From Anaerolineaceae bacterium (GTDB lineage Bacteria; Chloroflexota; Anaerolineae; Aggregatilineales; Phototrophicaceae), in contig PABP01000036.1 of NCBI GenBank assembly GCA_002699585.1, positions 2,333 to 66,332 on the forward strand: a stretch of DNA of 64,000 nt. Direction: 5' to 3'. A model generated the notes under the pieces. It made no database searches. It had not been told where the DNA came from and saw only the letters and a program-made list of their open reading frames with translations. Below, piece after piece: positions 35,189 through 53,149 of the stretch. The translations under genes and the position numbers were made by a program. The first letter of the stretch is position 1, and the number at the start of each line of letters is the position of its first letter.

Positions 35189-36202
35189 TCAAGTAGATGC
35201 GGGGAAATTGGCTGATGTATAGGCCTGTCCAGCTTTGGTGATGAGCAGGGCCTCGGCTGTCGGTAGCTGCTCAATGAGGGCTAGATCCGCCTGGGTACCC
35301 ATGACCAGCATGGTAGTCGAGAGCGCATCGGCATCGCAGGCTGTGGGAGCGATGACCGTCGCGCTGGCCAGTTCACCCGGAGAAATGCCGCTGGTCGGGT
35401 CGATGATGTGATGCAGGCGCAGATCGGGCGTGAAGGCATTTTGATAGTCGCCGGAGGTCGCCATCGCGCGGTTTTCCAGCGAGGTCATAATGGGAGCTGA
35501 TGACGAAGAGCGCGGACGCTCAATGCGTACATGCCAGGGGCGCTGGTCAGCATCGCCGTAAGCCTGTAAATCGCCACCTAATTCGACCAGAATGTGTTCA
35601 AAGCCGTGGTCGCGCAGGACGGCAGCACCCGCGTCGATAATGTAGCCCTTGGCGATGCCATCGAGGGTAATGGCCATGCCAGGTTTGCTTAACGAGATGC
35701 TATCCGGTGCGAGTGAGATCTGACGGTAATCAACGGTTTGCTGGGCCGCAGCAATCTGGTCATCACTGGGCATAGTGCCGGATTGGCTGCCCTGGCGATA
35801 AAGGCGCAGCACGGGTTCGACGGAGACATCGAACGCGCCACTACTGAGGTCACCATAGTGGATGGCTTTGGCCATGACATCAACGAAAGCCGGGTGCGCA
35901 TCTTGGAGATGGCCTTTGGCGTTGAGTTGGCTGAGCTGGCTGTTGGGCCGGAAGCGACTAAAAACATCTTCCAGGGCGGACATTTTGCCAAATGCCGCCG
36001 CAATGGCCTGACGGGCTTTTTCCGGCTGGTGACTGATGAGGGTCAGGTTGGCGACGCTGCCCAGGAGCATTTGCGTTTCCGTAACACGGGTCATCTGCTG
36101 CTGTTTGGCGAGGCCATAACCCACACCACCGACCAGCAAAGCGCTGGCCGCCGCTGTCATGCGAATAAATTGCCGTCTGGATATGTCATTGGATTGCGTC
36201 AT
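35189..36202 (-). CDS. apbE: FAD:protein FMN transferase
   Basis: 337 residues. A TAT-type signal (SRRQFIRMTAAASALLVGG) would send it outside the membrane. The ApbE core includes FSRFRPNSQLSQLN, SSGAFDVSVEPVLRLY, ITLDGIAKGYIIDAGAAVLRDHGFEHILVELGGDLQ and a Thr/Asp-rich C-terminus. ApbE enzymes attach FMN to a Thr in the motif D-G-x-[ST]-G-A-T. Exactly that motif occurs in the NosR/RdhC-like protein encoded 323 bp upstream, so this is its likely maturase. Last gene of the minus-strand Rdh operon. Confidence 0.95.
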   Translation of the reverse strand: MTQSNDISRRQFIRMTAAASALLVGGVGYGLAKQQQMTRVTETQMLLGSVANLTLISHQPEKARQAIAAAFGKMSALEDVFSRFRPNSQLSQLNAKGHLQDAHPAFVDVMAKAIHYGDLSSGAFDVSVEPVLRLYRQGSQSGTMPSDDQIAAAQQTVDYRQISLAPDSISLSKPGMAITLDGIAKGYIIDAGAAVLRDHGFEHILVELGGDLQAYGDADQRPWHVRIERPRSSSSAPIMTSLENRAMATSGDYQNAFTPDLRLHHIIDPTSGISPGELASATVIAPTACDADALSTTMLVMGTQADLALIEQLPTAEALLITKAGQAYTSANFPAST

Positions 36203-36240
36203 GATCAATTCGCTATCGACTCTGTGCCTATGACCTGGAC

Positions 36241-36567
36241 TTACGTTCCAGGGATTGGTTCTGGCGTCACTAATTCGGCCTCAGCCGTTTCTGTCGCGTG
36301 GGTCTCACTATTGCGGCCCTGCCCCTGGCCACCCCCGCCACCGTGATGTTCATCTTCATCGACGGGCTGGTAGCCCTCGGCCTGCATTGTCATCACGATG
36401 GGCGAGAGCGTCGGTGTCAGAGTAGGCGTCGATTGAATAGCCGCGCTTTGCGCTTCTGATAGGGCCAAACCCAGTGTCAGCACGACCATCGTCAGGCTGA
36501 TGCCCAGGTAGACGATTAGGAAGCCTATTTTGATGTCGAAACGGCTGTTTTGCTTCTTTGTTGCCAT
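36241..36567 (-). CDS. Small His/Gly-rich membrane protein
   Basis: 108 residues from MATKKQNSRFDIKIG. One transmembrane helix (about 14-38) is followed by a Thr/Pro-rich linker and the segment EDEHHGGGGGQGQG, then an acidic tail. Its start lies inside the end of the upstream NosR-like gene (43-bp overlap), so the two are translationally coupled. It may place a metal- or flavin-interacting tail outside the membrane; no family is recognised. Confidence 0.65.
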   Translation of the reverse strand: MATKKQNSRFDIKIGFLIVYLGISLTMVVLTLGLALSEAQSAAIQSTPTLTPTLSPIVMTMQAEGYQPVDEDEHHGGGGGQGQGRNSETHATETAEAELVTPEPIPGT

Positions 36568-37763
36568 GCGTTTTTCACCCAACGGCGACCTTCACCGATG
36601 TAATCCACGACAGGATCTAGCGGGCAGATATAGTTACAAAATGGGCGGTAAATCACCAGAGAGCCGAACAAGACCAGCACCAGCAGGACCCACTGCGGCC
36701 AGGAGCCTTGTAGGTCAAATAAAGTGCCAAACGGCTCATAGCTGACCGTACCCGGTTGGCGCAGGGCCAGTCCGAGGACAATGGCCGTAAAGGACAGCGC
36801 ACGCTGTACCCAGCGCAATTTGCTATAAAGCTGGCGCGGCTGATACGGCTTGGCCCCACTGATCGACCCTAAGATTTCCTGGGCAGCCCCAAAGGGACAG
36901 AACCAGGAGCAATATGGGTTTTTGCCCTGGATGCTGGTCACCAGGATGATGCCGAACACCAGGATGAACCAGTACAGGTTGGTGTGCCAGTCCGGCCAGT
37001 AACCTGATAAGAATGTGACCACATTGGAGAGCGTAAAGGGCTTGTTGAAAATAAAGCCGAGCGTCAGCAAGCCAGCGATCAGGACAGCCCAACGGCCATA
37101 TTTCTTGATGGTGGTGCGGCGCTTGAGGCGATGCAGCAAGAAGCTGACCACAAATAGCGCGATCAGAGCAACTTCCGGCGCGCCAAACTTGACGGGCTGC
37201 TGGTCCGGCGGTATGTCTGCGCCAGCGATAGCCGCCCCGCCGATTCCGCGTACAGCCTGACGGATACTCTGGGCGACGGCTTCCGAAGAGAGAGTCGCGC
37301 CACTAATGCCGTCAATGTCATCACCGAGAATGAGGGCATCGCTGTAATCCATGCCAGGGAACTGGTCATAGTAGTTTTGCAGGTCCAACTGATGGAAGAA
37401 ATTGGGCGTTTCGCCATGTTCGACAACAGCAACGTTGGTGATATTGCCATCGGGGTCGGTAGCGACCATCATCAGGATGGGACCGCCATAACCAGAAGCT
37501 GTACCGGCCATCGCGTAACCGATTACTTCCTCGCTGCCATCGACAGTCGCGTAACCCGTGAACAGGCCATTGCTGCCAGCTTCGATGCGGTCGGCAGTGG
37601 GTAACACGTCGGCGGCATAGGGCGTAACGTCTGTGCCTGCCCCGGCGCGGCCAATCACCCAGGCGGCGATCAAGATGACGAAGGCGGCCACTGTCACGAT
37701 GTTCTTTTGTCGCCGTTCTCGCGAGCGGCGTTCTTTGATGCTTATAGCAGCGGCTTTAGACAT
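36525..37763 (-). CDS. NosR/RdhC-like FMN-binding membrane ferredoxin
   Basis: About 412 residues from MSKAAAISIKERRSRERR. A first helix anchors an extracytoplasmic FMN-binding domain (about 60-170) with DGISGATLSS, where Thr157 is the predicted site of ApbE-attached FMN. Several membrane helices follow, with two CxxxCP motifs (CSWFCPFGAAQEI and CNYICPLDPVVDYIG) of the NapH/NosR/RdhC polyferredoxin type. It would carry electrons across or along the membrane to the exported RdhA proteins. Relatives in dehalogenating bacteria are RdhC. Encoded between the RdhB-like gene and apbE. Confidence 0.88.
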   Translation of the reverse strand: MSKAAAISIKERRSRERRQKNIVTVAAFVILIAAWVIGRAGAGTDVTPYAADVLPTADRIEAGSNGLFTGYATVDGSEEVIGYAMAGTASGYGGPILMMVATDPDGNITNVAVVEHGETPNFFHQLDLQNYYDQFPGMDYSDALILGDDIDGISGATLSSEAVAQSIRQAVRGIGGAAIAGADIPPDQQPVKFGAPEVALIALFVVSFLLHRLKRRTTIKKYGRWAVLIAGLLTLGFIFNKPFTLSNVVTFLSGYWPDWHTNLYWFILVFGIILVTSIQGKNPYCSWFCPFGAAQEILGSISGAKPYQPRQLYSKLRWVQRALSFTAIVLGLALRQPGTVSYEPFGTLFDLQGSWPQWVLLVLVLFGSLVIYRPFCNYICPLDPVVDYIGEGRRWVKNAWQQRSKTAVSTSK

Positions 37764-37794
37764 CGCTACAATCCCAATACTAAACAAGGTGAAT

Positions 37795-37823
37795 CCGGCA
37801 GATAGGATCTTCCCATCTGCCGG
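37795..37823 (-). other. Intercistronic stem-loop in Rdh operon
   Basis: A perfect 9-bp stem CCGGCAGAT / ATCTGCCGG around an 11-base loop lies between the RdhB-like gene and the NosR-like gene. There is no T-run, so it is more likely an mRNA processing or stability element than a terminator. Confidence 0.5.
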
Positions 37824-37860
37824 AATTTACATCAGATTATCGGTGTCGTTGCTAGCGCTG

Positions 37861-38127
37861 CTAGGCGGTTGTACGGCCACGAAGAGCACGAACGACGACG
37901 ATGACGGTCAGCAGGAGGGCTGGTATACCGAAGGAGGCCAGCAAGAACATGGCCGCACGCGGCTCCAGTTCTTCCATTGAGCCGTTGTAGTTGGCAATCG
38001 CCAAAATATAGAAGACGATTGCGAGTACCAGTACCACCCAGTCAAACCAGGCCAGCTTGATGCTGCTGTTCTTGAGAAAGAGCAGGCCCGCACCAATGAC
38101 GATTCCTAAGATCAACCAAAGTAACAT
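37861..38127 (-). CDS. rdhB: RdhB-like membrane anchor
   Basis: 88 residues with three hydrophobic helices (about 2-18, 27-46, 58-80) and the loop NYNGSMEELEPRAAMFLLASFGIPALLL, in which the EPRA stretch resembles RdhB anchors. AAAGGA precedes the ATG. The stop-to-start gap from the RdhA gene is 30 bp, as expected for rdhAB pairs. It would hold RdhA at the outer face of the cytoplasmic membrane. Confidence 0.75.
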   Translation of the reverse strand: MLLWLILGIVIGAGLLFLKNSSIKLAWFDWVVLVLAIVFYILAIANYNGSMEELEPRAAMFLLASFGIPALLLTVIVVVRALRGRTTA

Positions 38128-38157
38128 GAATCAGTCCTTTCCTGTGTGTCAGCGCGC

Positions 38158-39537
38158 CTAGGCGTCGGCATGACCTTGTGTCGAATCAATACCGTATTCA
38201 GGCAGGTCGAGCGTCCACCATTCTTCGGGGTCTTTCTGCGGCTCGTCCATTGGGCCAGAGCTGTAAACGTTGCGGCTGAGTTCTGCCAGCGCGCCATTGA
38301 AGATAGTCGTCGTACCAATCGTGCCTTTGACCATACTGTGGATGAGGGCACGATCCTTGACCGAGAACGGGCAAACGGCGAAGCAGATACCGCAGTTAGT
38401 GCCTGTTTCTGCCCAGTAGTTACGGCAGGTCAGGGCATTTTCGTACCAGGTCTTGACGCCGCCGCGGTTCCAGCCGCCCTGGGTATCGTATGAGGGATCC
38501 GGGCTGGTGCTGAGTGAACCAGACGGGCAGTAGGTGGCGCAGGTCATGCAAGATTTGCAGAAGTTGAAGATACCCGCGTCAATCGGCTTGGTTGGGGCCA
38601 CCGGCAGGTTGGTGACCATCTTGAAGACGCGCACCATCGGGCCGTATTCGGGCGTGATGAGGCGGTTCAAGCGGGAGAGTTCACCGAGGCCAGCCATCAC
38701 ACCAAAAGCGGGTGCAATACCGAGCGCGTTCGTCTGAGCTTCGCCCAGGCCATAGTAGCCGATACCACGCAGGAAGCCTTGCAAGCGGCTCTGGATAGCG
38801 CGATTACGGGCATAGGCCATCGATGTGGTGGCCGCACCGAGCGGGGTTGGACAGCGCGTCATGCCTTCTTGCGACATCTGCACGGTCCAGGTGATGACCC
38901 AGCGTGCTTTCTTGGGGATGATACGCTGTTCTTCAGTCTCATCCGGCACGTCTTGTTCTTCGCTGATGACAACTTCTTTGCCATCGGGATCGGTGGCGTA
39001 AATGAGCTTTTCAGTATTTTCGTCGAGTTCAACGAAGCCGACGGTGGCTGCACCAAAGGCGCGCAGTGCTGCGCGGATCATCTCAGAATTTTCTTCCGGG
39101 GTGCCTTCCCAACGCGGGATACCGCCTTCTTCCGGCGTGGTGACGTTGTCTGGTCCCAAGAAGGATTGATCTGAGCCGATGCCGCTGGCTTTATAAAGGG
39201 CGATGTCGCGCACGGAGTAACCGGGTTTACCCGCATTTGAGTGATCGTAGATGATCGTGCCACGCTGGGTGTTTAGCCGGGTGAAGGTTTCTTCATCCAG
39301 GTATTTGCTCCAGCCACGACGAACGGTGTTACGCTCATCAAAACGATAGATCGCTTCCCAGTCAATTTCGACGGTCGGCTTATCCACACTGCGGACCCAA
39401 GGTGGCCGCGGGGCAATACCAGCCTGGTCGCTCCAGCTTTCACCAAGGGCTTCAATCGGCCCTAGTGCGGCTGCGCCACCAATACCCAGCAGACCCATGT
39501 CCTTTAAGAACTCGCGTCTATTTAAACTGAATGGCAT
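38158..39537 (-). CDS. rdhA: Reductive-dehalogenase-like protein, paralogue 1
   Basis: 459 residues; the start MPFSLNRREFLKDMG behind AAAAGGAG is preferred to a longer frame from 39651 that overlaps the FmdB gene. The N-terminus is a TAT signal (RREFLKDMG). The core has GLGELSRLNRLITPEYGPMVRVFKM, the layout of cobalamin-binding RdhA catalytic domains. Two Fe-S motifs follow: Cys327/330/333/337 (CKSCMTCATYCP) and Cys371/382/385/389 (ending CGICFAVCP). It would reduce an organohalide or similar substrate outside the membrane. QueG-type epoxyqueuosine reductases share the core but lack the TAT signal and RdhB partner. The natural substrate is unknown. Confidence 0.88.
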   Translation of the reverse strand: MPFSLNRREFLKDMGLLGIGGAAALGPIEALGESWSDQAGIAPRPPWVRSVDKPTVEIDWEAIYRFDERNTVRRGWSKYLDEETFTRLNTQRGTIIYDHSNAGKPGYSVRDIALYKASGIGSDQSFLGPDNVTTPEEGGIPRWEGTPEENSEMIRAALRAFGAATVGFVELDENTEKLIYATDPDGKEVVISEEQDVPDETEEQRIIPKKARWVITWTVQMSQEGMTRCPTPLGAATTSMAYARNRAIQSRLQGFLRGIGYYGLGEAQTNALGIAPAFGVMAGLGELSRLNRLITPEYGPMVRVFKMVTNLPVAPTKPIDAGIFNFCKSCMTCATYCPSGSLSTSPDPSYDTQGGWNRGGVKTWYENALTCRNYWAETGTNCGICFAVCPFSVKDRALIHSMVKGTIGTTTIFNGALAELSRNVYSSGPMDEPQKDPEEWWTLDLPEYGIDSTQGHADA

Positions 39538-39607
39538 GTAATTTCTCCTTTTTATTACGCATACGTCATCTGACGTTTTGTCGCTAAGTTGGATTTGAAC
39601 TGTGTGA

Positions 39608-39853
39608 CTAACGTGGGTGGCAGGTCGCGCAGCCACTCCCCGCAGCACCACAACCTGAGCAAGGCGAGCTACCCGCTAATGCCCGCACTTGGCCATTTGT
39701 CGATGATGAAAAAATAGCCACATTACTGATGAGCCGCTGAGTTTCCAGCGATTGGCACTCTGGGCAGAGTGTGTCGGTATCCACATCGGCCATATGCTTA
39801 CGGACTTCAAATTGGGTTTGGCATGCCTCACAACGGTAGGTATATCGTGGCAT
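39608..39853 (-). CDS. FmdB-type zinc-ribbon protein
   Basis: 81 residues. MPRYTYRCEACQTQFEVRKHMAD and LCPECQS form a CxxC/CxxC zinc ribbon of the FmdB/CxxC_CxxC_SSSS regulatory family. An extra Cys-rich tail (SPCSGCGAAGSGCATCHP) is typical of longer members. It is the first gene after the cobalamin riboswitch and is followed 71 bp later by rdhA paralogue 1. It could assist metal delivery, regulation or cofactor insertion for the Rdh system; this is inference. Confidence 0.85.
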   Translation of the reverse strand: MPRYTYRCEACQTQFEVRKHMADVDTDTLCPECQSLETQRLISNVAIFSSSTNGQVRALAGSSPCSGCGAAGSGCATCHPR

Positions 39854-39909
39854 GGGGGCTCCCTTCTTGATTCAATGGCTCCTGATTGGGGGAGCCTGGG
39901 CTTAGAAAA

Positions 39910-39944
39910 CAAAAAAACCGGCAATCCACTTGGATTGTCCGGTT
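39910..39944 (-). terminator. Riboswitch expression-platform terminator
   Basis: On the minus strand: AACCGG-A-CAATCC, loop AAGT, GGATTG-CCGG then TTTTTTTG. A strong intrinsic terminator lying about 20-50 bp after the B12 box and 57 bp before the FmdB-type start. Confidence 0.9.
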
Positions 39945-39963
39945 CTCAAGGCTCGTGAGAATG

Positions 39964-40086
39964 TCGGTGTATGGTCAGGGTACCCTGGCTCCTGAGGTGG
40001 TATGTTGCGATCCCCTCAGTCACAGTTGCGGCCCAGCATCGGTCTTTCACCGATTTTCCCCTGTGACGCTACGTCTTATCTAGCGT
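39964..40086 (-). promoter_or_regulatory. Cobalamin riboswitch
   Basis: Minus-strand sequence includes GGGGAAAATCGGTGAAAGAC, GATGCTGGGCCGCAACTGTG and the B12 box GAGCCAGGGTACCCTGACC. These match the core of the cobalamin aptamer (GGGAA...GGTG.AA..CC, GCTG..CCGCAACTGT, AGCCAGG.AC). A TACTAT hexamer at 40097-40092 could be the -10 that starts the leader. The terminator at 39910 suggests transcription is stopped when cobalamin is bound. The first gene controlled is the FmdB-type protein, then rdhA paralogue 1 and the rest of the operon. Confidence 0.93.
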
Positions 40087-40149
40087 CTTACATAGTATGG
40101 CGCAGCAGGGGTTATCTGTCTGTCGGGAGGCTCTTGATACGCTGTCAGG

Positions 40150-40193
40150 AAAAGCCCTATTTTGCGGGCATCTTTGTAGGGTTTTTCCCTACA
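40150..40193 (-). terminator. Weak terminator after rdhA paralogue 2
   Basis: Minus-strand hairpin TGTAGGGAAAAACCCTACA is followed by a second one, GCCCGCAAAATAGGGC with TTTTCC. It would separate the upstream unit from the riboswitch-controlled unit. Confidence 0.5.
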
Positions 40194-40198
40194 GGCTG

Positions 40199-41581
40199 TT
40201 AGTCCTTGTCCGTACGGATGCCAAACTCCGGCAGGTCCAGCGACCACCAGCCTTCGGGGTCTTTCTGGATGCCATAGCCGAAGGCATCGTCCATGTTGCG
40301 CGTCATCTCATTGAGGAACGGCATCTCGGAGATTTGCATGCGGATCAGGTCATGCATGAAGCTCTGGTTGCGTTTGGAAAACGGGCATACCGAGAAGCAA
40401 ATGCCACAGTTGGTGCCGAGTTCTTCATACCAGTAGCGTTTGCAGCGCACGGAATCTTCAAACCAGGCTTGATGGCCGGGGTTGTTCCACTCGCCGATGG
40501 GTTGCCAGTTGGGGTCGGTTTCAAAGCTGAGAGCACTCGGTGGGCAGGCTTCCGCACATTTTTTGCAGGATCGGCAAAAACGGGCGATGCCAGCGTCGAT
40601 GGGCTTATCGGGAGCCAGCGGCAAATCCGTAACCATTTTGAAGATACGCACCATTGGGCCGTATTCCGGGGTGATGACGCGATTGAGGCGCGACAGCTCC
40701 CCCAGGCCAGCCATGACAGCCAGTGCAGGGGCAATCCCCAGGCCGTTGAGGGCGGCTTCGCCCATGCCCTGATAACCCAGACCGCGCAAAAATTCCTGAG
40801 CGTTGTTCTGGATCATGAGGCCGCGCTGATAACTTTCGCGGGTGGTCGTCTGGGCGATTTTGGTGGGCGCACGCTTCATCGCCAGGTCGGACATCTGCAC
40901 CGCGTAGACGATCACCCACTGGGCTTTGTTAGGGATGACGCGCTTGTCGTCGTCCTCGTAGGCCTGTTCGACATCATCAAAGATGATTTGTTTGCCATCG
41001 TGGTCCACGCTGTAGATGAGTTTGCGGGTGTTGTCATCGAGCTTGACGAAGCCGACTAAGGCAGCGCCCATCTGATGCAGGGCGACTTTGACCATCGCGG
41101 CGTTTTCTTCCGGCGTGCCATGCCAGGGTTCTAAGCCCTCATCCTGGGGGCGAGGCGCTTGCTGCGGCCCTAAGAAAGTACGTGGCATGACCTCGCGCAC
41201 ACTATGGAAAGCATTGACCAGGGCCGTATCGCGCAGGGTGTATCCGGCCTGATTATTGGCCAAGCGCTGCTGCTGTATTTGGCGACGGGCTTCTTGGAGG
41301 CGCTTATTCTCTTCCTCAGTGGCAAAGCGATTGAGACCATCCCCCAACAACGTATTTTGCTGGGCATTGACGCGTTGCATGGCTTCCCATTTGATACCGA
41401 GGGTTGGTTCATCCACCTGACGCACCCACCAGGGCCGCCGATAAACGCCGCCTGATGTTGTCTCGCCGAGTTGCTCACCGAGGGCGGTCGCGCCGACGGC
41501 ACCCGACACGCCGAGAGTGATCCCGGCCATGCCCATGTTCTTCAAGAAATCGCGGCGGCTAGGGTTATCGTGCTGGCTCAT
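40199..41581 (-). CDS. rdhA: Reductive-dehalogenase-like protein, paralogue 2
   Basis: 460 residues with GGAGGAAT before the ATG. TAT signal SRRDFLKNMGMAGITLGVSG. The core GLGELSRLNRVITPEYGPMVRIFKMVTDLPL and the Fe-S motifs Cys336/339/342/346 (CRSCKKCAEACP) and Cys380/392/395/399 (ending CGICFSVCP) parallel paralogue 1, as does the C-terminal WWSLDLPEFGI. It would be a cobalamin and iron-sulfur enzyme outside the membrane. Unlike paralogue 1 it lies before the riboswitch and follows the two-component genes, so the two copies are probably controlled differently. Confidence 0.88.
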   Translation of the reverse strand: MSQHDNPSRRDFLKNMGMAGITLGVSGAVGATALGEQLGETTSGGVYRRPWWVRQVDEPTLGIKWEAMQRVNAQQNTLLGDGLNRFATEEENKRLQEARRQIQQQRLANNQAGYTLRDTALVNAFHSVREVMPRTFLGPQQAPRPQDEGLEPWHGTPEENAAMVKVALHQMGAALVGFVKLDDNTRKLIYSVDHDGKQIIFDDVEQAYEDDDKRVIPNKAQWVIVYAVQMSDLAMKRAPTKIAQTTTRESYQRGLMIQNNAQEFLRGLGYQGMGEAALNGLGIAPALAVMAGLGELSRLNRVITPEYGPMVRIFKMVTDLPLAPDKPIDAGIARFCRSCKKCAEACPPSALSFETDPNWQPIGEWNNPGHQAWFEDSVRCKRYWYEELGTNCGICFSVCPFSKRNQSFMHDLIRMQISEMPFLNEMTRNMDDAFGYGIQKDPEGWWSLDLPEFGIRTDKD

Positions 41582-41584
41582 GGG

Positions 41585-41923
41585 CTATTCCTCCACATCC
41601 ATGACATCCATATCGGCATCGGAAGCCCGTACGATGTCTTGTTCAGTTGCATCCTGGTGGACCACATCGCGGTAAACGCTGCGGCTTTCAATGATTTTTG
41701 TGATTTCGATAGTCAGTCCGGCCATCAGCAGCACTAGGAACATACCCCCGGCCACCACCCCAGGCTGCACCTCACGCTCGGCAAAACTAGCCAGGGAGAA
41801 CTCCAATAAGATGGCCAAAGCGACCAGCCACAAGAACCAGGCCATCCAGGAAGCACAGGGCCGCCGCCGGATGCGCAGGAAAAAATAGTCTGGTGATGCT
41901 GGGTGGGGCTTATGGTCGCTCAC
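41585..41923 (-). CDS. Small membrane protein, RdhB-like partner
   Basis: 112 residues with two transmembrane helices (about 25-47 and 55-75), a basic N-terminus and an acidic tail. It starts in ATGA overlapping the response-regulator stop codon and ends 3 bp before the rdhA paralogue 2 start. By position it is the membrane anchor of that RdhA; the sequence itself is not clearly RdhB. Confidence 0.65.
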   Translation of the reverse strand: MSDHKPHPASPDYFFLRIRRRPCASWMAWFLWLVALAILLEFSLASFAEREVQPGVVAGGMFLVLLMAGLTIEITKIIESRSVYRDVVHQDATEQDIVRASDADMDVMDVEE

Positions 41924-42588
41924 TTGGTCTCCAGGAGTTCATGCTTGAGGGCGTACTGCACCAAGTCAGCGCGGCGTTCTAGATTGAGTTTTTCCATGAC
42001 GCGCTGGCGGTAGGTATCGACTGTTTTGGGGCTGATGAAAAGCATCTCGCCCATTTCCTTGCTGCTATAGCCGAGGGCGGTCATGATGAGCACTTCGCGC
42101 TCACGGTCGCTGAGCAGGTCGAGTTCACTGGGTGGTTTTTCTTCCGGCTCCTGATTTTGATCGCGGTAGTCGGCTAGCAGCACATTGGTCACACCGGGCG
42201 TCAGATAAGAATTACCCTGAGCGATTTGGCGAATGGCGGCGATGAGTTCGGTATCGGCGGCGCTCTTGAGGACATAGCCTGCACCGCCGGCCTGCATCAC
42301 ATGACGGATGTACTGGGTATCGGCATGCATGGTCAGCACCAGCACGCGCGTATCCGGGTGCTGTTGGGTGCAATCTTCGATGATGTCCAAGCCTTTGACT
42401 TCCGGCATCATCAAGTCGAGCACGACCACATCGGGGCGCAGAGCAGCAATCTGGGCCAGAGCTTCACGGCCATTGCTAGCTTCACCTACGACGGTGAGGT
42501 CCGGCTCGCTGTTGAGCAAGGCTTTGAGGCCAGCCCGCAGGACAGCGTGGTCATCAGCGAGCAAGATGCGAATGGGGATGGTCTCCAT
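41920..42588 (-). CDS. NarL-type response regulator
   Basis: 222 residues. Receiver domain with ADDHAVLRAG and the phosphoacceptor Asp58 in VVVLDLMMPE; conserved Thr and Lys follow (VLVLTMHAD, VLKSAAD). C-terminal LuxR/GerE helix-turn-helix: LLSDREREVLIMTALGYSSKEMGEMLFISPKTVDTYRQRVMEKL. AGGAGCACATT precedes the ATG. It overlaps the next gene by 4 bp and follows the kinase by 9 bp, so it is the likely activator of the Rdh genes. Confidence 0.94.
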   Translation of the reverse strand: METIPIRILLADDHAVLRAGLKALLNSEPDLTVVGEASNGREALAQIAALRPDVVVLDLMMPEVKGLDIIEDCTQQHPDTRVLVLTMHADTQYIRHVMQAGGAGYVLKSAADTELIAAIRQIAQGNSYLTPGVTNVLLADYRDQNQEPEEKPPSELDLLSDREREVLIMTALGYSSKEMGEMLFISPKTVDTYRQRVMEKLNLERRADLVQYALKHELLETK

Positions 42589-42597
42589 AATGTGCTC

Positions 42598-44244
42598 CTA
42601 TAAGCTATTTTCGGGCACGGTCAGTTCAATTTGTAGCTGGGTACCCTGCCCTGGCTTGGATTCCAGTTGGAAGGTGCCACCGAGCAGTTGCACCCGTTCC
42701 TGCATGCCCAATAGGCCCAGGCCGCGGTCACTGTTTTTGAGCAAGTCATTGACGTTGAAGCCGCAGCCATCGTCCTTGACTGAGGCGTTTATCCGGCTGT
42801 GTTCGCGGTAGATTTCTACATTGATGTGCTGCGCCTGGGCATGTTTGGCGATGTTGGTCAGCGCTTCTTGCACGACGCGATAAAGCAAAATCTCGACATC
42901 ACGCGGCAGGCGGATGTCATCAAGGTGATCGGTCTGGAAGTCGACATCGAGGCCAGTCTGCTTGGCATACTCGTAGATGTGCCCTTCTAATGCAGAAATC
43001 AGGCCGAGGTCATCGAGGGCCGAGGGGCGCAGGTCAGCGGCCAAACGGCGCACTTCTTGCAGGGTGCGCCCGACGACTTTGCGCAAGTCCTCAACGCCTG
43101 TTTTGACGTGGTCGAGGTTATCGCTGCGCTCCAGCATTTTGAGGTGCACCAGCATAGAGGTCAGGGCCTGCCCTGTTTCATCATGCAGCTCGCGGCTGAT
43201 GCGCTGACGTTCTTCTTCCTGGGCGCTGACGACTTTGGTCAATAGCTGGGTCAGCAACTGTTCTTTTTGGGTAAGCTGCCCCCAGAGTTTGCCATTCTGG
43301 ACGGTCACGCCTAATTGATTGCAAATGCCACTGATGACGCGCTGATTCTGGGGAATGTGGCAGGCGGCTTTATCGCAGAATAGAATCAACAAGCCCAGCA
43401 CAGACTGTTGTGCGCCGATGGGCATTACCAACGAAGCTTCGTAGCCATGCTGCGGGCGTAGCTGCACCAAAAACGATAAGGCTGAGGGCAGGTCATCCTT
43501 TGGATCGACCGTATCAATCATCAGCGGTCCATCAATGTCGAAAGGGTCGTTATCGGCACTGCCGAAGTCGGTTAAGGCTTGCGGGATCGCCTCTAAGAAG
43601 GCCTCCGGCAAATGGAAGCTGGCAGCGACTTGCGGTCGCTCGTCAGCCATCATGAGAATGAGGCCCGCCTGGGAACCCGTATTTTCCAGAGCGCGGCGCA
43701 GACCATACTGGATGATCTGCTGCATGTCGCCGGGTTCATTGGCCATGTGGGCCAATTCATAGAGCACGGCTAATTCCTGATTGCGCTGCTTGAGCTGATC
43801 GTTGGAACGGGCCAGTTCCTGATGGGAGGCATCCAGGCTGATAATCATGGCGTTGAAGGCGCGGCCCAGTTCGCCGATTTCATCATTGGCCCAGACAGGG
43901 GCACGCACGGAGAGATCGCCATCTTTGACGCGCTGGGCGACCCAGGTCATGTTGATGATGGAGCGCGTCAGCACCCAGGTCAAAAACCAGCCGATGCCCA
44001 GACCCGCCACCGCTGAGAAGACGGTGATGATCGATACGCTGCGCATACCGACCGACATGGCCTGCTCGACACGGGCTTCGCTCAGGAGGTAGGAAAGCCA
44101 ACCGCCCAGTTGGTTACTAACCCACCAGGCAATCGTAAAACCCAATATCAATAGGGGCGCGACAATGATGCCAATGATTTTCTGGCGTAGGGGGACACGC
44201 CCCGCCCACGCCCAGAATGCATCCCAGATTTTCCGTCGGAACAC
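42598..44244 (-). CDS. NarX-type sensor histidine kinase
   Basis: 548 residues, GTG start. Two transmembrane helices (about 23-43 and 73-95) flank a short loop, then a HAMP domain and a GAF-like domain (about 150-320). A HisKA_3 helix with ISRELHDETGQAL (phospho-acceptor His354) and an ATPase domain (EALTNIAKHAQ, DDGCGFNV, GLGLLGMQERV) complete it. It would autophosphorylate and pass phosphate to the adjacent NarL-type regulator. The short outside loop suggests the signal is sensed by the membrane part or the GAF domain. Confidence 0.93.
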   Translation of the reverse strand: MFRRKIWDAFWAWAGRVPLRQKIIGIIVAPLLILGFTIAWWVSNQLGGWLSYLLSEARVEQAMSVGMRSVSIITVFSAVAGLGIGWFLTWVLTRSIINMTWVAQRVKDGDLSVRAPVWANDEIGELGRAFNAMIISLDASHQELARSNDQLKQRNQELAVLYELAHMANEPGDMQQIIQYGLRRALENTGSQAGLILMMADERPQVAASFHLPEAFLEAIPQALTDFGSADNDPFDIDGPLMIDTVDPKDDLPSALSFLVQLRPQHGYEASLVMPIGAQQSVLGLLILFCDKAACHIPQNQRVISGICNQLGVTVQNGKLWGQLTQKEQLLTQLLTKVVSAQEEERQRISRELHDETGQALTSMLVHLKMLERSDNLDHVKTGVEDLRKVVGRTLQEVRRLAADLRPSALDDLGLISALEGHIYEYAKQTGLDVDFQTDHLDDIRLPRDVEILLYRVVQEALTNIAKHAQAQHINVEIYREHSRINASVKDDGCGFNVNDLLKNSDRGLGLLGMQERVQLLGGTFQLESKPGQGTQLQIELTVPENSL

Positions 44245-44361: not shown

Positions 44362-46005
44362 CTAGCCTACCGGCACGGTCAGGTAGCAGATGGCGATGTA
44401 CGAGAGGCGTTCCCCACGCACGCGGTAGGTACCCGGTTCAGCGGTCCAGTTGGCGCGGAAGATGCGCAGGTAACGCTCGTCTTCGGGATTACTACTCACC
44501 AGGATCGGATCGGTGGCGTGGACCCGTAGATAATCCTGATCGTTGAGCACAACCGACCCCGGATCAATGCTAACGGCGCGGCGAGCTTCGCCATAGTTAT
44601 CGAAAGGCGGCGGCGTAAATTCAAAGGTGATTTGTTGGCCAGCACGCAGGGGGCCGTTGGTCGGCTCGCAGGTTTCCAGGGAAACGGTATTGGTCGATGG
44701 GGCTGGATCGTCGTTTAGCACCGGGATGGAGCGGCACTCGCCCAGAGTTTCCACACGGGAGGCACGTATCCAGCTCGATTGGCGCAATTGATACCAGAGG
44801 GTATCGCTGGCATCAGTCGTTTGCTGGACGGGCATCACCTGTTGCCCCGCAGCAATCGGATTCACCACTTCGTAAAATTCAGCGGGACCGGCATAGAGTT
44901 GGGAATCCATACGGACGACATAGCGGCAGGTGGTATCCGGCGTGGAGGTCGGCGGCGGGGCTTGGCTGGCCTGGACAGATTGCTGCCAACGGGTGGTCGC
45001 GGCGGCGATGTCATCCTGGGTGATGGCCTCGGTCATCGTAAAACGGCGCGGCAAGGCATTCAGGGGCAGGCCTGTAAATTCAAACGTGCCGAATGGCTCT
45101 GGATGGGCCAGGTGCAACTGGGAAAATTGAATGCGTGCCCCGGCGGGTACGACCACCTGGGAATCCTCTGGGCCAGCGATGAGCGAACCTTCCAGCACAT
45201 TGGCAGTGAGTAACTCGCTGTCAGCGGTAATGAAGACCGTCGCCGCGACTTGGAATGGCACGTTATTCAGGGTGAAGGATACGGCGTGCTCCGGGTGCGG
45301 GGATTGGATCAGCAGGCCGCTGGGGAGCTGGCCATCGCATAGGCTGGTTGATTGCCCGCTGAGGTGGGCCACCTGGAAAGGCCGCAAGTAGGGGTCGCCC
45401 ACTTCGATGACGTTTAGCTCGCTGACAGGCGACGGCACAGTGAGGATCTCGGAGGAAATCCAGGCGAGGTCGTTGCTGTTGGGTACGCTGACACGCAGCC
45501 AGCGGCTATCTTCGGTGCGGCCATTGGCCACCAACGCACGATTCACAGCCAGTTCCATGACGATGTCGCCATCAATGGCCGGGGTGGCGCGTAATTTACC
45601 TGTTCCGGTGAGGGTGACGGTCATGGTCGGCACAGATGATACCAAGTTCATCAGGCTGACATCCCCCAGAGCGAGCCATGTCATGGCCGTGCCTTCGTTG
45701 TCGGTGATGCTGGCCTGGACCTGTAACTGGGCCACTGCCGGGTCATCGCCGTTGGCCAGGGTGATAATCCATGTGCCGTTGAGCGGCATAATCTGCCCCG
45801 TCTGCTCGATGAGTGCGCCATCGGTTGATTGCAGGCTGACATCACCGCTGCCGATGCAGACCTGATTGCGTTCGATCCCGTAACAAGCGGAACTGGCACG
45901 GGCCAGCGCCAGCAACACATCCGGCGGACAGGTGGCCTGGGCCATGATCGGTGCTGTTATATGGAAAGCCAGCCAGAATACTAAAAAGAATCCCCACTTA
46001 CGCAT
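44362..46005 (-). CDS. Secreted SH3-like domain protein
   Basis: 547 residues. Sec signal peptide (FLVFWLAFHITAPIMA|QAT). The mature part begins CPPDVLLALARASSACYGIERNQVC and contains beta-rich repeats, then an SH3-like domain with CRYVVRMDSQLYAGPAEFYEVVNPIAAGQQVMPVQQ. A C-terminal domain with TFEFTPPPFDNYGEARRAV follows. Transcribed divergently from the secreted-protein operon at 46237. Function unknown; probably an outer-surface protein that binds cell-wall or other ligands. Confidence 0.75.
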   Translation of the reverse strand: MRKWGFFLVFWLAFHITAPIMAQATCPPDVLLALARASSACYGIERNQVCIGSGDVSLQSTDGALIEQTGQIMPLNGTWIITLANGDDPAVAQLQVQASITDNEGTAMTWLALGDVSLMNLVSSVPTMTVTLTGTGKLRATPAIDGDIVMELAVNRALVANGRTEDSRWLRVSVPNSNDLAWISSEILTVPSPVSELNVIEVGDPYLRPFQVAHLSGQSTSLCDGQLPSGLLIQSPHPEHAVSFTLNNVPFQVAATVFITADSELLTANVLEGSLIAGPEDSQVVVPAGARIQFSQLHLAHPEPFGTFEFTGLPLNALPRRFTMTEAITQDDIAAATTRWQQSVQASQAPPPTSTPDTTCRYVVRMDSQLYAGPAEFYEVVNPIAAGQQVMPVQQTTDASDTLWYQLRQSSWIRASRVETLGECRSIPVLNDDPAPSTNTVSLETCEPTNGPLRAGQQITFEFTPPPFDNYGEARRAVSIDPGSVVLNDQDYLRVHATDPILVSSNPEDERYLRIFRANWTAEPGTYRVRGERLSYIAICYLTVPVG

Positions 46006-46236
46006 GTTGTCAGCTTCCTGGTTTTGTCATCCTGGTAATAGAGGTAGAGAAAAAGCATGTTTTGCAGTGCGGGCAACCGTGCAGCATGGGTACCCTACGT
46101 GCATATTACATCGCAACCTTACGGGCGTATGGTGGCCACCTGTTGAGCGTAGGGTTGGCGTTCGGTTTTGCACACGGCCTTACCCGCACAATAGAAGGGA
46201 AGCCTGTTTGCAACACCTACGTCTGGAGAACAATCC

Positions 46237-49200
46237 ATGCGACGATTCCTCATACCCATCGTGGGGGTATTGGTCCTCTTTGCAGTTGGCATCAGCATTG
46301 CCCAAAATGCCACGCCGCAATCCTTCACTGTGTTCCGACAATTCGGTACGCTGCGCCCACGTGGCATGATTTATGACCCGAATTACGATCAATTTGCCTG
46401 GGTGGATGGCCAGGGTCGACTGCTGCTGGCCGATGCCGCCACCTACTCCCCGCGCCACATCCTGTATGACGTGCCAGACGCCTTTAACGCCTATGCATTC
46501 AGCCATGATGGACGCTGGTTGGCACTGGCGGTCGATGTACGCATTGAGCTATGGAACACGCAGACGGGCGAACTGGCCACCACGCTGGCGCCGGAAGGCG
46601 TCTTGCAGATACAGGGGCCGCTGTACTTCGGCACGGATGACCGTTTGCTGCAATTCGACAGCCTCGTACGCGCCCCGGCGGAACTGCGCCGCAGTGAAAA
46701 CGATACGCTGGTGCTGTCGTGGTTGTGGGATTTGCCAGCCGCGCGGCGCGAGTCCTCAGCGAGCTTGCCGGGGAACTCACGGGCGTATGCTTTCTTTGAA
46801 TATCGCGGGTCATCGTTGCTGCTGGGTACAGGGGACTACGTCATCGCGGGTGCACCCAGCCGCTTAATCGTGATGGACGCGGGCGACCCCGCGCTGCCCA
46901 TCGTCGCAGAAATTAGCGCCAACCGTCTGGAGCGCGACCCTTTCAATATATGGACCAGTGCGCGTGATGGGTATATGTATGTGCTGCCCAGTGGGCGCAA
47001 TGAGCTGATCCAGATCGACCCCGAAAAAGGCACCCTATTCAATATTCAGGTGGGGCGCAACCTGGGCTATTACAACCTGGATGACCTGGAAGGGTTTGGC
47101 TTCAGCCGCCTGCACCACGTCATCGGGGATGCCAATTCCCAGGAAGATACGCCGCTGCTGCGCTTGCTGCTAGGTGACGATTATCTGCTAAGCCGCAACT
47201 TTAACGAACAAACAGTGGTGCTGCTGGATGTGCTGGAACCGCTGACCGTCACACAGCAAGAAGCGGGTTTCCTGATTTACCGCTTCGACCGTCAGACATC
47301 AACGGGCGTCATCGAGTTCATCAACCCGCCGGATGTGCAGCAGTTGGTGGTCCATCCTGATAACAATCAATTGCTGGTACGGCGCAATTCGACACAGCAA
47401 ATCGAAACCTATAACCTGGATACAGGCGCACTGGAGCAGGTCTACTATCCAGACCTGCCCGACCCCAATGGGCAGTACACGCTGGCCTATAACGGCGATG
47501 GCAGCGTCATCACCAGCGATATGCAGCGCTTCGACGCGGTGACGGGCGACACGCTGTACCGCGACGCCAACATTGATTTTCAATCCGGGCAGATTACGTT
47601 CACTGAGGACAGTACGGGCCTGATTTCGCGGGTGGGGGATACCTGGCACATCTGGGATGTGGCTACGCAAAGCCTGATCCGGGAGCGCACCCTCCACCTG
47701 CGCGGGGATGTCATCGACAATGAGGCCGACCTCAGCCGCTATCTGTCGGTGTATACGGAACAAAGCCGAGAGACCATCACCGTACAAGCCCCCGTCGATA
47801 CAACGAGCGGCGATGAGCAGGCCGTCGATGCCACGCCGACGCTTGAACCAAGCCCAACACCACTGCCCTCACCAACGCCACAGATTACAGCCACACCTGC
47901 CGCTGACGAAGCGTCCCAGGATGGCGTCGCCATTGTCGCTGTGCCGGAAAATATGCTGAACGTGGCGCTTGTCAGCAATACCTACTATGAAATCACAGAC
48001 ATCTGGTCCGGGGAGCGTACCCAGTTCCGGGTGCCAAAATATGACAACTACACCGTCGAGCAGGTCATCCCCAGCGCGGACTGGCAGCATTTCATCGTGG
48101 TCTACAGCCACGGCCAGGGCAACCTGTTCACGCACGAGAGCGATGTCATGGTGTTCGACTTTGACGGCAATCTGTTGATCCACCTGACGCCCAACAATCT
48201 GCCCTCATCACAGGGGCGGTCCTATAGCTGGCTGGACAATGAGCGCGTCGTTATCCGCAGTTCACAGCCCTATGAGAACCGCACCGAGCCGATCCTGGGC
48301 GTCGCATATCACGTTTCCGGGTTGCCGCAGTGCATGGTCGATGCCTATGACGACTGGCAGCAATTTTTGCCGCTATGGGAATTGTTCAATTTACGCTTTG
48401 AAAACGAGCAACTTAGTTGGTTGACGCAGCGCATTTGCAGCAATCTACCCGCATCAGCCGATGCCTTCATCGACAGCCTGACACCAACGCCACCCTACTA
48501 CTACCCGGTCGCCAGGGGGGCGGATACGAGCGTGATCGTCGGTGTGCCGGAGTGCCTGACACGCCGCTTCAGCAGCTCGTCATTGGCCTATGCGGAGCTG
48601 TGGCGCACGATGTCCGCCGGGTTGGAAGACGACGAACTCGAAGGGCTGGAGGATATGCTATGTGAAGGCCTGCTGAGTTCAGTCAGCCAGGTCGATGCCA
48701 CGCCGACATCCGACCCGAATGCGCTAGGTGCAGCGACTGCGACACCTGTCGACAGAGAAGCGAGCAGCGTCACGCTCGGCAGTGATAGCGTACCGGGCAT
48801 CATGGTGGTGGACATCACCGACCAGACGCGCACGGTCGGCAGCTATGTACCAACCGCAGAAACGACGACTGTACGCTCGCAGTTGGGGCGTGTTCTGGAA
48901 GAATACGAAGAACTCTACAATCGGCGGCCCGATGGCACGACCATCCTCAGCCCGAACGGCGAGTATATGGCGGTGCAGGATGGGCGCGGATTCGTGACAA
49001 TTTACCAGCTTGGCCAATCCCGGCCCGATCAAGTGTGGGTCAACCGCGTGACGCGCGACGTACCACGCACGCCGATTCGGTCCACACAGGCGGTGGGTTT
49101 GCTACCAACGGCGACAGCCTCCCTGAGTTACCTAGATGAACCGCAGCCGACGCTGACGCCAACCGTCAGCCCGACCGCGCCGCCCCTACCGGAAGCGACT

Positions 49201-50388
49201 TATGCCCTGCCGGAGCGCGATGCTGTCACAGAAATTTGCCCCTATGACCACCTGTTTACGCTGGATCAGCCTGCACCCGACTTCGCAGCCGAGGGCAGCT
49301 TGTATGTGCTGTCGAATGTGCTGTGGGTGCTGGATGTCGCCAGCGGGTCGTATCGCCCGGTGGACAGCCTGCCCGTATGCGATGTAGAGGCCAATTGCGA
49401 CTTCTCACCGGATGGGCAATGGAACCTGCTTCACGGGGAGGTTCCCCTGTTGATACGGGCCGATGGCAGCGAACCGCAGGTCGTCATCCCCCATACCGAA
49501 CGACCTGTAAAGAATGTCTCGGCCAGTTGGACGCTGGATTCGACGTTGCAGTTACGATTTGATCAGTATGACGCTGGGGAACTACGCAACCCGCACACGT
49601 TCTACCAGACCTATGACCCGAACACGGGAACATATGGCGCAATCACTGAACCGCTGGATGTGCCGACCATTTATGAATTACCGACAACGGTCATCAGTGT
49701 GCAGCCGATCTACAGGGAGTGGGCGCTGGTCTGGACGCCATACGATGGTGCCTATGCTGAGGGTCGCAAATACTACATGTACCACTACCCAACCCAGACG
49801 TTCCGCTACTTTTTGCGGGCGATTGGCACTTCGCTGGACAGCTTCTGGCATCCGCAAGGAGAGCGCCTCTACTATCGGCCACCCGGCCAGGAAGACTGGT
49901 ACGTCTTCGATACGACGACGCAGGAACACAGCCACTATGGCGACATCTACGGCGGCACATGGTCGCCGGATGGGACTTATCGCATCGACTGGTACAGCCT
50001 GCCGAATGCCGACGAGCGTCATGAACGGCTGTTGAATCAGGAGTTGCTGCCCAAGCTGCAATTATGGAACAGCCAAACGGGTGAGCTACAGCGTTATTGC
50101 CTGCCGGAAACAGGCAGCACCAGCTACAGCGGCACTCCGCTGCTGTGGTCGCCGGATAACCGCTATGTGGCGTTCCGGGTGGAGCTACCGCCGGAGGGCG
50201 ACGTCTTCCCGGTGCCGACGGTCAAATATACGCCTGTGCCGACCGCAACGCCGATGCCCTTGGAGCAGGTCTATCAATATCGGGCATGGCGGACGCTGGT
50301 GCTGGATACGCAAACCGGGGCGGTAACGGTCCTCAGCACGGAAGCTGATAACGCCTTCGTGTGGGTCGCAGAGGAGGTGGCACGATGA
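46237..50388 (+). CDS. Giant secreted beta-propeller protein
   Basis: 1383 residues. Sec signal (LIPIVGVLVLFAVGISIA|QNA). WD40/TolB-like blades are visible by repeats such as YDPNYDQFAWVDGQGRLLLADAATY, SHDGRWLALAVDVRIELWNTQTGELATTL, SPDGTYRIDWY and SPDNRYVAFRVELP. They are separated by Pro/Thr-rich linkers (TPTLEPSPTPLPSPTPQITA, TPTVSPTAPPLPEAT, VPTATPMP). No enzyme motif was found. First gene of an operon of secreted proteins; the next start overlaps its stop in ATGA. Confidence 0.8.
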   Translation: MRRFLIPIVGVLVLFAVGISIAQNATPQSFTVFRQFGTLRPRGMIYDPNYDQFAWVDGQGRLLLADAATYSPRHILYDVPDAFNAYAFSHDGRWLALAVDVRIELWNTQTGELATTLAPEGVLQIQGPLYFGTDDRLLQFDSLVRAPAELRRSENDTLVLSWLWDLPAARRESSASLPGNSRAYAFFEYRGSSLLLGTGDYVIAGAPSRLIVMDAGDPALPIVAEISANRLERDPFNIWTSARDGYMYVLPSGRNELIQIDPEKGTLFNIQVGRNLGYYNLDDLEGFGFSRLHHVIGDANSQEDTPLLRLLLGDDYLLSRNFNEQTVVLLDVLEPLTVTQQEAGFLIYRFDRQTSTGVIEFINPPDVQQLVVHPDNNQLLVRRNSTQQIETYNLDTGALEQVYYPDLPDPNGQYTLAYNGDGSVITSDMQRFDAVTGDTLYRDANIDFQSGQITFTEDSTGLISRVGDTWHIWDVATQSLIRERTLHLRGDVIDNEADLSRYLSVYTEQSRETITVQAPVDTTSGDEQAVDATPTLEPSPTPLPSPTPQITATPAADEASQDGVAIVAVPENMLNVALVSNTYYEITDIWSGERTQFRVPKYDNYTVEQVIPSADWQHFIVVYSHGQGNLFTHESDVMVFDFDGNLLIHLTPNNLPSSQGRSYSWLDNERVVIRSSQPYENRTEPILGVAYHVSGLPQCMVDAYDDWQQFLPLWELFNLRFENEQLSWLTQRICSNLPASADAFIDSLTPTPPYYYPVARGADTSVIVGVPECLTRRFSSSSLAYAELWRTMSAGLEDDELEGLEDMLCEGLLSSVSQVDATPTSDPNALGAATATPVDREASSVTLGSDSVPGIMVVDITDQTRTVGSYVPTAETTTVRSQLGRVLEEYEELYNRRPDGTTILSPNGEYMAVQDGRGFVTIYQLGQSRPDQVWVNRVTRDVPRTPIRSTQAVGLLPTATASLSYLDEPQPTLTPTVSPTAPPLPEATYALPERDAVTEICPYDHLFTLDQPAPDFAAEGSLYVLSNVLWVLDVASGSYRPVDSLPVCDVEANCDFSPDGQWNLLHGEVPLLIRADGSEPQVVIPHTERPVKNVSASWTLDSTLQLRFDQYDAGELRNPHTFYQTYDPNTGTYGAITEPLDVPTIYELPTTVISVQPIYREWALVWTPYDGAYAEGRKYYMYHYPTQTFRYFLRAIGTSLDSFWHPQGERLYYRPPGQEDWYVFDTTTQEHSHYGDIYGGTWSPDGTYRIDWYSLPNADERHERLLNQELLPKLQLWNSQTGELQRYCLPETGSTSYSGTPLLWSPDNRYVAFRVELPPEGDVFPVPTVKYTPVPTATPMPLEQVYQYRAWRTLVLDTQTGAVTVLSTEADNAFVWVAEEVAR

Positions 50389-51365: not shown

Positions 51366-51477
51366 GTTGTTAGTGATTCGTTTTTAGTTTTTGGTTTGAC
51401 ATTTTCTTCTCTGGAAGACGGCAGCCCAAGATTAACCTGTGGCAGCCATCAGAGACTAATAACTAACGACTAAAAAC
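51366..51477. repeat. Imperfect inverted repeat
   Basis: Arms at 51366-51388 (GTTGTTAGTGATTCGTTTTT onward) and 51455-51477 match as reverse complements at 18 of 23 positions. The 200-bp gap holds no gene; the element may be a fragment of a mobile or structural repeat. Confidence 0.4.
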
Positions 51478-51566
51478 TTTGGAAATTCGATAGATAACAA
51501 GCAACACAATTTTGAGCCATACGTTTGTAAGCAACTATGCACAACCTACTGAGGAGAAGCCACATT

Positions 51567-52394: not shown

Positions 52395-52404
52395 GGGCTG
52401 CCTG

Positions 52405-53139: not shown

Positions 53140-53149
53140 GGATGATGCC

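Follow-up and report, generated by a model that had tools for sequence, protein, structure and literature searches.

A conserved reductive dehalogenase operon, probably quinol-linked and of new architecture, with two RdhA genes in Phototrophicus

The 64,000-nucleotide stretch of DNA analysed here (the window; contig PABP01000036.1 of assembly GCA_002699585.1, positions 2,333 to 66,332) carries a locus with two genes for reductive dehalogenase (RDase) catalytic subunits, RdhA1 and RdhA2. The window belongs to contig C5 of an assembly with 42 contigs and a total of 6.7 Mb; the same-genus genome G067 was taken to be that of the cultured Phototrophicus methaneseepsis ZRK33, and the window to come from another species of that genus. 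All parts of the locus lie on the minus strand, from 44244 down to 35189, in order from a sensor histidine kinase to the flavin transferase ApbE (open reading frame (ORF), Pfam, NCBIfam and Rfam analysis). The locus is likely to be a two-component-controlled respiratory RDase operon of a Phototrophicus species, composed of two modules, and the encoded system is probably an organohalide reductase that is exported by twin-arginine translocation (Tat) and linked to menaquinol. This is a real and conserved RDase operon, probably quinol-linked and of new architecture. An initial annotation of the window had listed the parts of the locus; every item in that list, with its strand and order, proved correct, and the description of the genome as Anaerolineae-type is supported.

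The prediction that both RdhAs are exported cobalamin/iron-sulfur (Fe-S) enzymes, already made in the initial annotation together with their anchors, flavoprotein and ApbE, is supported by family models and by Tat and EXE motifs. RdhA1 (40199..41581, minus strand) and RdhA2 (38158..39537, minus strand) scored 295.4 and 272.4 bits with TIGR02486 (cut-off 160.35), and 99.5 bits (2.8e-28) and 96.4 bits (2.3e-27) with PF13486 (cut-off 24.3). The Tat motifs are SRRDF in RdhA1 (TIGR01409, 18.6 bits against 16.7) and NRREF in RdhA2. The start of RdhA2 is most likely the ATG at 39537, rather than the first codon (GTG) of the longer ORF, because of the AAGGAG upstream, the Tat motif and the identical start in relatives. 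The best sequence match of both proteins in the PDB was PceA of S. multivorans (4uqu; 1.2e-55 for RdhA1, 1.8e-46 for RdhA2), with QueG far weaker. The initial likening of the locus to those of organohalide respiration is supported. AlphaFold models built from 23-row alignments were of moderate quality (mean predicted local distance difference test scores of 63 and 65) and without cofactors, and a fold search with both ranked PceA structures first, followed by 8q4h, NpRdhA and QueG. At the positions of PceA Tyr246, Asn272 and Arg305, all eight RdhA1 and all seven full RdhA2 sequences have the same residues as PceA. Tyr251 and Arg312 of RdhA1 and Tyr242 and Arg303 of RdhA2 are invariant in the 23-row alignments, as are the eight cysteines of the two C-terminal Fe-S motifs. 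The new terminal reductase suggested in the initial annotation is a possible alternative, but with the catalytic residues of known RDases retained, the simplest assumption for the reaction catalyzed is reductive dehalogenation. The weak TIGR00276 matches of the two proteins (41.3 bits for RdhA1 and 23.8 for RdhA2) would speak for QueG-like tRNA modification enzymes; the cut-off of that model is 200 bits, however, and the Tat motifs, the RdhB and RdhC neighbours and the first rank of PceA in sequence and fold searches make a QueG identity, which the initial annotation had named as a refuting outcome and which was rejected here on the scores, extremely improbable.

The same locus was found in related genomes. 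Of the 151 genomes searched in the order, 45 had a PF13486 match, against none among 14 controls, and the tandem type was present in nine of the 151 (nine of the 45 PF13486-positive genomes), the window included. The other carriers are G067, G127, G133, G136 and G140 of the same family, G011 and G051 (f3), and G060 (f7). By tblastn, the series from kinase to ApbE was complete in G067, G127, G011, G051 and G060, which are all five of the relatives with spanning contigs; the conserved gene order that the initial annotation had looked to relatives for is thus present. The remaining contigs end within the regulator (G136), within RdhA2 (G133) or right after RdhA1, the frame of which is broken (G140). 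Four neighbours in the window (u1, u2, d1 and oxi) had no tblastn match in the relatives' loci. The order recurs in relatives while the tested neighbours do not, which indicates that the arrangement is more than chance. Identity to the window was 63-80% for RdhA1 orthologues and 71-85% for RdhA2 orthologues, and RdhA1 and RdhA2 are 44-48% identical to each other (39% for the partial G133 copy), with fixed differences at 30 positions. Full-length kinase orthologues were 50-71% identical in five loci, and regulator matches were 63-83% identical in eight relatives (partial in G136, at the contig end). The zinc ribbon was 53-75% identical in all seven relatives whose contigs reach it; RdhB2 (52-68%), RdhC (58-79%) and ApbE (50-64%) were each found in six relatives. 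The GAF part of the kinase is missing in G127 and G133 (L034:15318-16445 and L035:4240-5409).

The two RdhAs are probably not sisters, and each has its own EXE-type RdhB; both points are new here and were absent from the initial annotation. In a tree of 82 rows, from which three partial RdhA rows (G140_A1p, G133_A2p and L050) were left out, as they were from the residue counts, and in which the broken RdhA of L105 was not included, RdhA1, RdhA2, the RdhAs of single-RdhA operons (single-type) and f46-type RdhAs formed one group of 31 rows (100/99). This group is nested within one of 63 rows (100/100), whose further RDases are mostly from Dehalococcoidia. Outside the larger group fell PceA and NpRdhA, in places that are unsure as their rows are partial and long-branched. 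RdhA2 grouped with the f46-type RdhAs (99/98) rather than with RdhA1. An origin of the pair by simple local duplication is disfavoured: in approximately unbiased (AU) tests, for which the second test tree had 41 rows chosen from the 82, forcing RdhA1 and RdhA2 together cost 19.9 log units (p-AU 0.014), and a grouping of RdhA1 with the single-type RdhAs was not rejected (AU p 0.408). The two transmembrane (TM) segments of RdhB1 and three of RdhB2 agree with separate origins of the RdhAs.

A wider search of the class gave matches in 50 of 396 genomes at E <= 1e-30. Six loci (L096 and L101-L105), whole or partial, contain kinase, regulator, RdhA, RdhB, RdhC and ApbE genes with one RdhA; L103 and L104 are short, the stretch of L102 that was read has no ApbE, L105 has a broken RdhA, and an EXE-bearing RdhB could be recognised in L101 and L102 only. 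This older single-RdhA operon type is still present in other families of the class. The tree and gene orders suggest that an RdhA2-RdhB2 cassette, with the zinc ribbon and the riboswitch, joined such a kinase-regulator-RdhA-RdhB-RdhC-ApbE operon. The tree also bears on whether the two proteins might apply RdhA chemistry to a non-halogenated terminal acceptor, with the electron route unchanged. The substrate is not readable from the sequence, the carriers have oxidases, no carrier is shown to dehalogenate in the literature available in part here, and RdhA2 differs from RdhA1 at the 30 fixed positions. Against this stand the retained catalytic Tyr/Arg and both Fe-S motifs, and the placement of both RdhAs with Chloroflexota RDases that include those of genomes of Dehalococcoides-like size and RdhA number; a non-halogenated acceptor is considered unlikely.

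Several other RdhA relatives were seen in these searches. Five loci read (L040 and L042-L045) from the other 36 PF13486-positive genomes of the order hold a single RdhA relative without partner genes. Those at L044:8912-10156, L045:9157-10383, L040:8519-9790 and L043:7972-9147 are about 390-425 aa long and keep the Tyr and Arg, with no evident Tat motif or RdhB/RdhC neighbours; proteins like them were matched in many g7 genomes, form a separate group in the tree and may be cytoplasmic. Genome G431 (family f46) has a multi-RdhA cluster of five RdhA2-like proteins on two contigs (L094:284-3451 and L095:566-7799), with kinases nearby and short RdhB-like proteins. Beside RdhAs in G431 and G299 (L095:6303-7799 and L099:11923-13437) lies a divergent RdhA relative, about 500 aa long and 27% identical to RdhA1, with the unusual active-site stretch GTSSDAYNRSS. 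At L050:6571-7998, in a metagenome-assembled genome labelled Bacillota, an RdhA with 48% identity to RdhA2 is split in two open frames; it is preceded by matches to the kinase and the regulator and followed by an RdhB-like protein.

Both RdhAs are accompanied by putative membrane anchors. RdhB1 (41585..41923, minus strand) overlaps the regulator gene by 4 bases and is separated from RdhA1 by 3 bases; in the window and in seven relatives it has two TM segments with the EXE motif between them (eight read; the RdhB1 counts exclude G011). RdhB1 resembles the single-type RdhB of L101 (sm1; 35% over 60 aa, 3e-10) and shares its two-TM layout with the RdhBs of G487 and G263. RdhB2 (37861..38127, minus strand) has three TM segments and an ELE motif (seven read). 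No Pfam or NCBIfam model naming RdhB or RdhC scored over its cut-off, and these proteins were named from architecture, motif and position. In PceA2B2, the menaquinol:organohalide oxidoreductase of Desulfitobacterium hafniense, the PceB subunits are in contact via TMH1 (PubMed Central article PMC10624902), and RdhB1, with its two TM segments, may be without a contact of this type. RdhB1 and RdhA1 are separate genes in the window and one open frame in G127, G133 and G136 (571, 570 and 568 aa), in which the twin-arginine motif is internal (TRRQF, SRRHF and TRRDF, respectively). Hybrid RDases with N-terminal transmembrane helices have been described as lacking a Tat signal, and the secretion of exoplasmic RdhB-like fusions has been posed as an open question (PMC6797604). 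A Tat signal placed internally, after two helices, would be one answer. The predicted RdhB1-RdhA1 fusion around an internal Tat motif, in three genomes, is new.

The RdhC-like membrane flavoprotein (36525..37787, minus strand) combines an FMN_bind domain, which matches RnfG structures, with two Fer4_5 stretches and a C-terminal likeness to NosR; its true start may lie downstream, because all six relatives align from about residue 28. ApbE, an FAD:protein FMN transferase (35189..36208, minus strand; PF02424, 7.6e-74), probably attaches flavin mononucleotide (FMN) to RdhC. Electron supply to the RdhAs was examined by comparison with PceA2B2, in which K489, H495, R499, D515 and Y520 of PceA are positioned at the menaquinone together with E61/E63 of PceB (PMC10624902). 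The equivalents of K489, H495, D515 and Y520 were present in all eight RdhA1 sequences, and that of R499 in seven, with His in the eighth. In RdhA2, in an alignment that is gapped there, the His and Tyr were kept in seven of seven sequences, and K489, R499 and D515 were replaced by Val, Lys and Ser in all seven. K489 is also missing in 11/11 f46-type and 14/19 f68 rows, so its change alone is not special, and Lys at the R499 position is also found in 5/5 single-type rows. D515 was kept in all single-type (5/5), f46-type (11/11) and Dehalococcoidia-type (13/13) rows and in both PceAs; the 19 f68 rows have D (11), E (6), S (1) or Q (1) at this position. As D515 is kept in other types and the K489 and R499 changes are found elsewhere, the loss of D515 is the most telling, with the proviso that the alignment is gapped nearby. 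These differences are read as a different electron entry in RdhA2 than in RdhA1. The putative divided pocket, in which RdhA2, unlike RdhA1, is without two of the five PceA menaquinone residues, is new, and this reduced RdhA2 pocket had not been recognized in the initial annotation.

The same features bear on a role in detoxification or carbon gain, in which halogen would be removed so that the product could be eaten and no energy would be conserved. A facultative, oxidase-bearing host with a large genome would suit such a role, but membrane electron transport is indicated by export through Tat, the EXE motifs of the RdhBs and the quinol-pocket residues in RdhA1; the detoxification reading is held to be quite improbable. 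Cytoplasmic catabolic enzymes of the NpRdhA kind are without Tat signal, EXE-type RdhB and quinol-pocket residues.

The longest intergenic gap of the locus, 345 bases 3' of RdhA1, contains a cobalamin riboswitch, a hairpin and a terminator. The aptamer (RF00174; 39961..40100, minus strand) scored 38.4 bits (gathering score 31.5), and the expression platform (39911..39960, minus strand) is composed of a small hairpin (39944-39960) followed by an intrinsic terminator with a T7 run (39911-39943); the terminator was not part of the initial annotation. All eight readable tandem loci (the window and seven relatives) have an aptamer downstream of RdhA1 and upstream of the zinc ribbon, and it exceeded the gathering score in five (the window, G051, G060, G011 and G127). 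A hairpin and terminator with a run of at least five T residues were found in seven loci, and a hairpin with an interrupted T stretch in G011. In ligand-free folding, mean pairing of the terminator arm was 0.87-1.00 in the seven loci with the T run, and 0.50-0.83 in four btu-type control switches folded in the same way. Judged by eye, the small hairpin and the terminator overlap hardly at all in the window and by several bases in G133 and G136, and the hairpin loop showed no consistent kissing-loop partner. The six single-RdhA loci, several of which are incomplete, had no cobalamin switch at the gathering score. The predicted riboswitch between two RdhAs in tandem loci, undetected in single-RdhA loci, is new. 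In G067, two ORFs located between RdhA1 and the riboswitch (L033:9045-10376) resemble, by eye, an AraC-type regulator and a RibD-type reductase, and were not seen at that place in the other loci.

The cobalamin switches of Dehalobacter restrictus precede corrinoid synthesis or uptake operons, and B12 represses (PMC4285132); a repressing switch ahead of a cobamide enzyme would be odd. No cobalamin switch of the ON type was found in the open PMC literature by a narrow search, which says little. With an ON-type switch, an asymmetric complex of RdhA1-RdhB1 and RdhA2-RdhB2 could be imagined in which menaquinol would be oxidised by RdhA1 only, RdhA2 would be fed via its partner or RdhC, and the second half would be made only with cobalamin. 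This arrangement is improbable, and would differ from the dehalogenase dimers described (PceA2 and PceA2B2), which contain one kind of RdhA (PMC10624902).

The locus begins with the sensor histidine kinase (42598..44244, minus strand; two TM segments, HAMP, weak GAF, HisKA_3 and HATPase in Pfam and NCBIfam) and a NarL/LuxR-type response regulator (41920..42588, minus strand; Response_reg and GerE). The initial proposal of NarXL-type control holds as a likeness at the family level, but not as an assignment: the equivalog scores missed every cut-off (NarX 104.6/578, NarQ 111.6/553 and NarL 146.5/250 bits). The suggestion that two-component control is unusual was mistaken, as it is usual for rdh operons; the characterised types of rdh regulator are CRP/FNR, two-component and MarR (PMC12090745), and all Dehalogenimonas rdhA genes of assigned function adjoin a two-component system (PMC13390414).

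The preferred two-module respiratory operon would operate as follows. Module 1 consists of the kinase, regulator, RdhB1 and RdhA1, in the observed gene order. RdhA1 would be exported by Tat, held by RdhB1 and supplied with menaquinol electrons at a PceA2B2-like pocket, the residues of which are present, and by homology would reduce an organohalide at the cobamide with its Tyr/Arg pair. Module 2, behind the riboswitch and terminator, comprises the zinc ribbon, RdhA2, RdhB2, RdhC and ApbE; the aptamer and terminator are seen by model and folding, and vitamin B12 would tune the output of this module. In RdhA2 the catalytic centre is retained and the quinol pocket is incomplete, so that electrons would probably reach RdhA2 by a modified route: via RdhC, via a complex that it shares with RdhA1, or via a quinol site of altered form.

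The hosts of these loci were also surveyed. Among markers of de novo synthesis of cobamides, CbiC was found in none of nine tandem and one of four single-type carriers. A BtuF homologue was found in seven of the nine tandem carriers and none came from G011 or G051; it lies beside the module behind its own adenosylcobalamin riboswitch in G067, G127, G136 and G060, and about 370 kb off on the same contig in the window genome. The absence of CbiC and the frequent presence of BtuF in tandem carriers count in favour of the two-module operon. NiFe-hydrogenase (PF00374), considered as a possible electron source, matched in 12 of 13 carriers (11 over cut-off; not G067), mostly as split N- and C-terminal pieces. 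ZRK33 is facultatively anaerobic and was grown anaerobically (PMC8941918), and its authors propose that unspecified alternative electron acceptors replace oxygen (PMC11005417); neither paper uses the string 'dehalogen' in its main text.

A number of observations weigh against the two-module respiratory operon. COX1 was found in all 13 carriers searched (nine tandem and four single-type), and with oxidases in every carrier, organohalides would serve as no more than an optional acceptor; the presence of predicted haem-copper oxidase genes in all 13 RdhA carriers is itself new. The equivalents of K489 and D515 are absent from RdhA2. The riboswitch fell under the gathering score in three of the eight loci (G136, G067 and G133; E 0.00025-0.0034), and in G067 two unrelated ORFs separate RdhA1 from the switch. 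RdhT is a trigger-factor-like chaperone, and no such chaperone is present in the locus. Finally, the groups of the AU tests were named post hoc, after the first tree.

Two further genes complete the locus. An FmdB-type zinc ribbon (39608..39853, minus strand; TIGR02605, 61.7 bits, cut-off 31.3) opens module 2, and a small protein with one hydrophobic stretch (36241..36582, minus strand), matched by no Pfam or NCBIfam family, was matched in two of the six relatives with the region (G067 and G060). Beside the module, window positions 44362-55956 encode signal-peptide-bearing, repeat-rich and TPR-like proteins, including one of 1383 aa with TPTATP-type linkers; by eye this run is ordinary for the group.

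Reductive dehalogenation in Anaerolineae was metagenome-inferred and had no experimental confirmation as of 2022 (PMC9303371). If the proposed function is true, the natural halogen cycle would include quinol-linked organohalide reduction by Chloroflexota with large genomes and oxidases; the known designs would be joined by one in which two RdhAs differ in their access to quinol; and a cobalamin switch would sit within a cobamide-enzyme operon, making the direction of control a sharp question. As a same-genus relative is in culture, the acceptor range of this bacterium is open to a growth experiment.

The module was not found described in the open PMC literature, as far as its texts were available, and a paper outside that library could hold it; nor was this locus described in the available texts on Aggregatilineales and dehalogenases. 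Tandem RDase genes as such are known, with equal transcript numbers in Aarhus Bay (PMC12090745). The closest comparison is with the PceA2B2 complex and pceABCT operon of D. hafniense (PMC10624902), which share the RdhA Tyr/Arg and two Fe-S motifs, the EXE-bearing RdhB, the RdhC-type flavoprotein and, with RdhA1, the K/H/R/D/Y set of the menaquinone pocket (R in 7/8). In contrast to that system, RdhA and RdhB are each present here in two versions, the RdhB1 anchor has two rather than three TM segments, the pocket K and D are absent from RdhA2, and the locus contains ApbE, a zinc ribbon, a two-component system and a riboswitch but no PceT. The Dehalogenimonas rdhAB operons (PMC13390414) are alike in that a Chloroflexota RdhA adjoins a kinase and regulator, but paired RdhAs, RdhC, ApbE, a mid-operon riboswitch and large-genome, oxidase-bearing hosts set the present loci apart. 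The hybrid RDases (PMC6797604) likewise have EXE-bearing RdhB-like helices fused to RdhA, which is the arrangement in G127, G133 and G136; those hybrids are without Tat, whereas here a twin-arginine motif is kept between the helices and RdhA1. The Dehalobacter restrictus switches (PMC4285132) likewise combine a cobalamin aptamer with a downstream terminator in the context of organohalide respiration, but those precede corrinoid operons, and the switch described here lies inside the dehalogenase operon.

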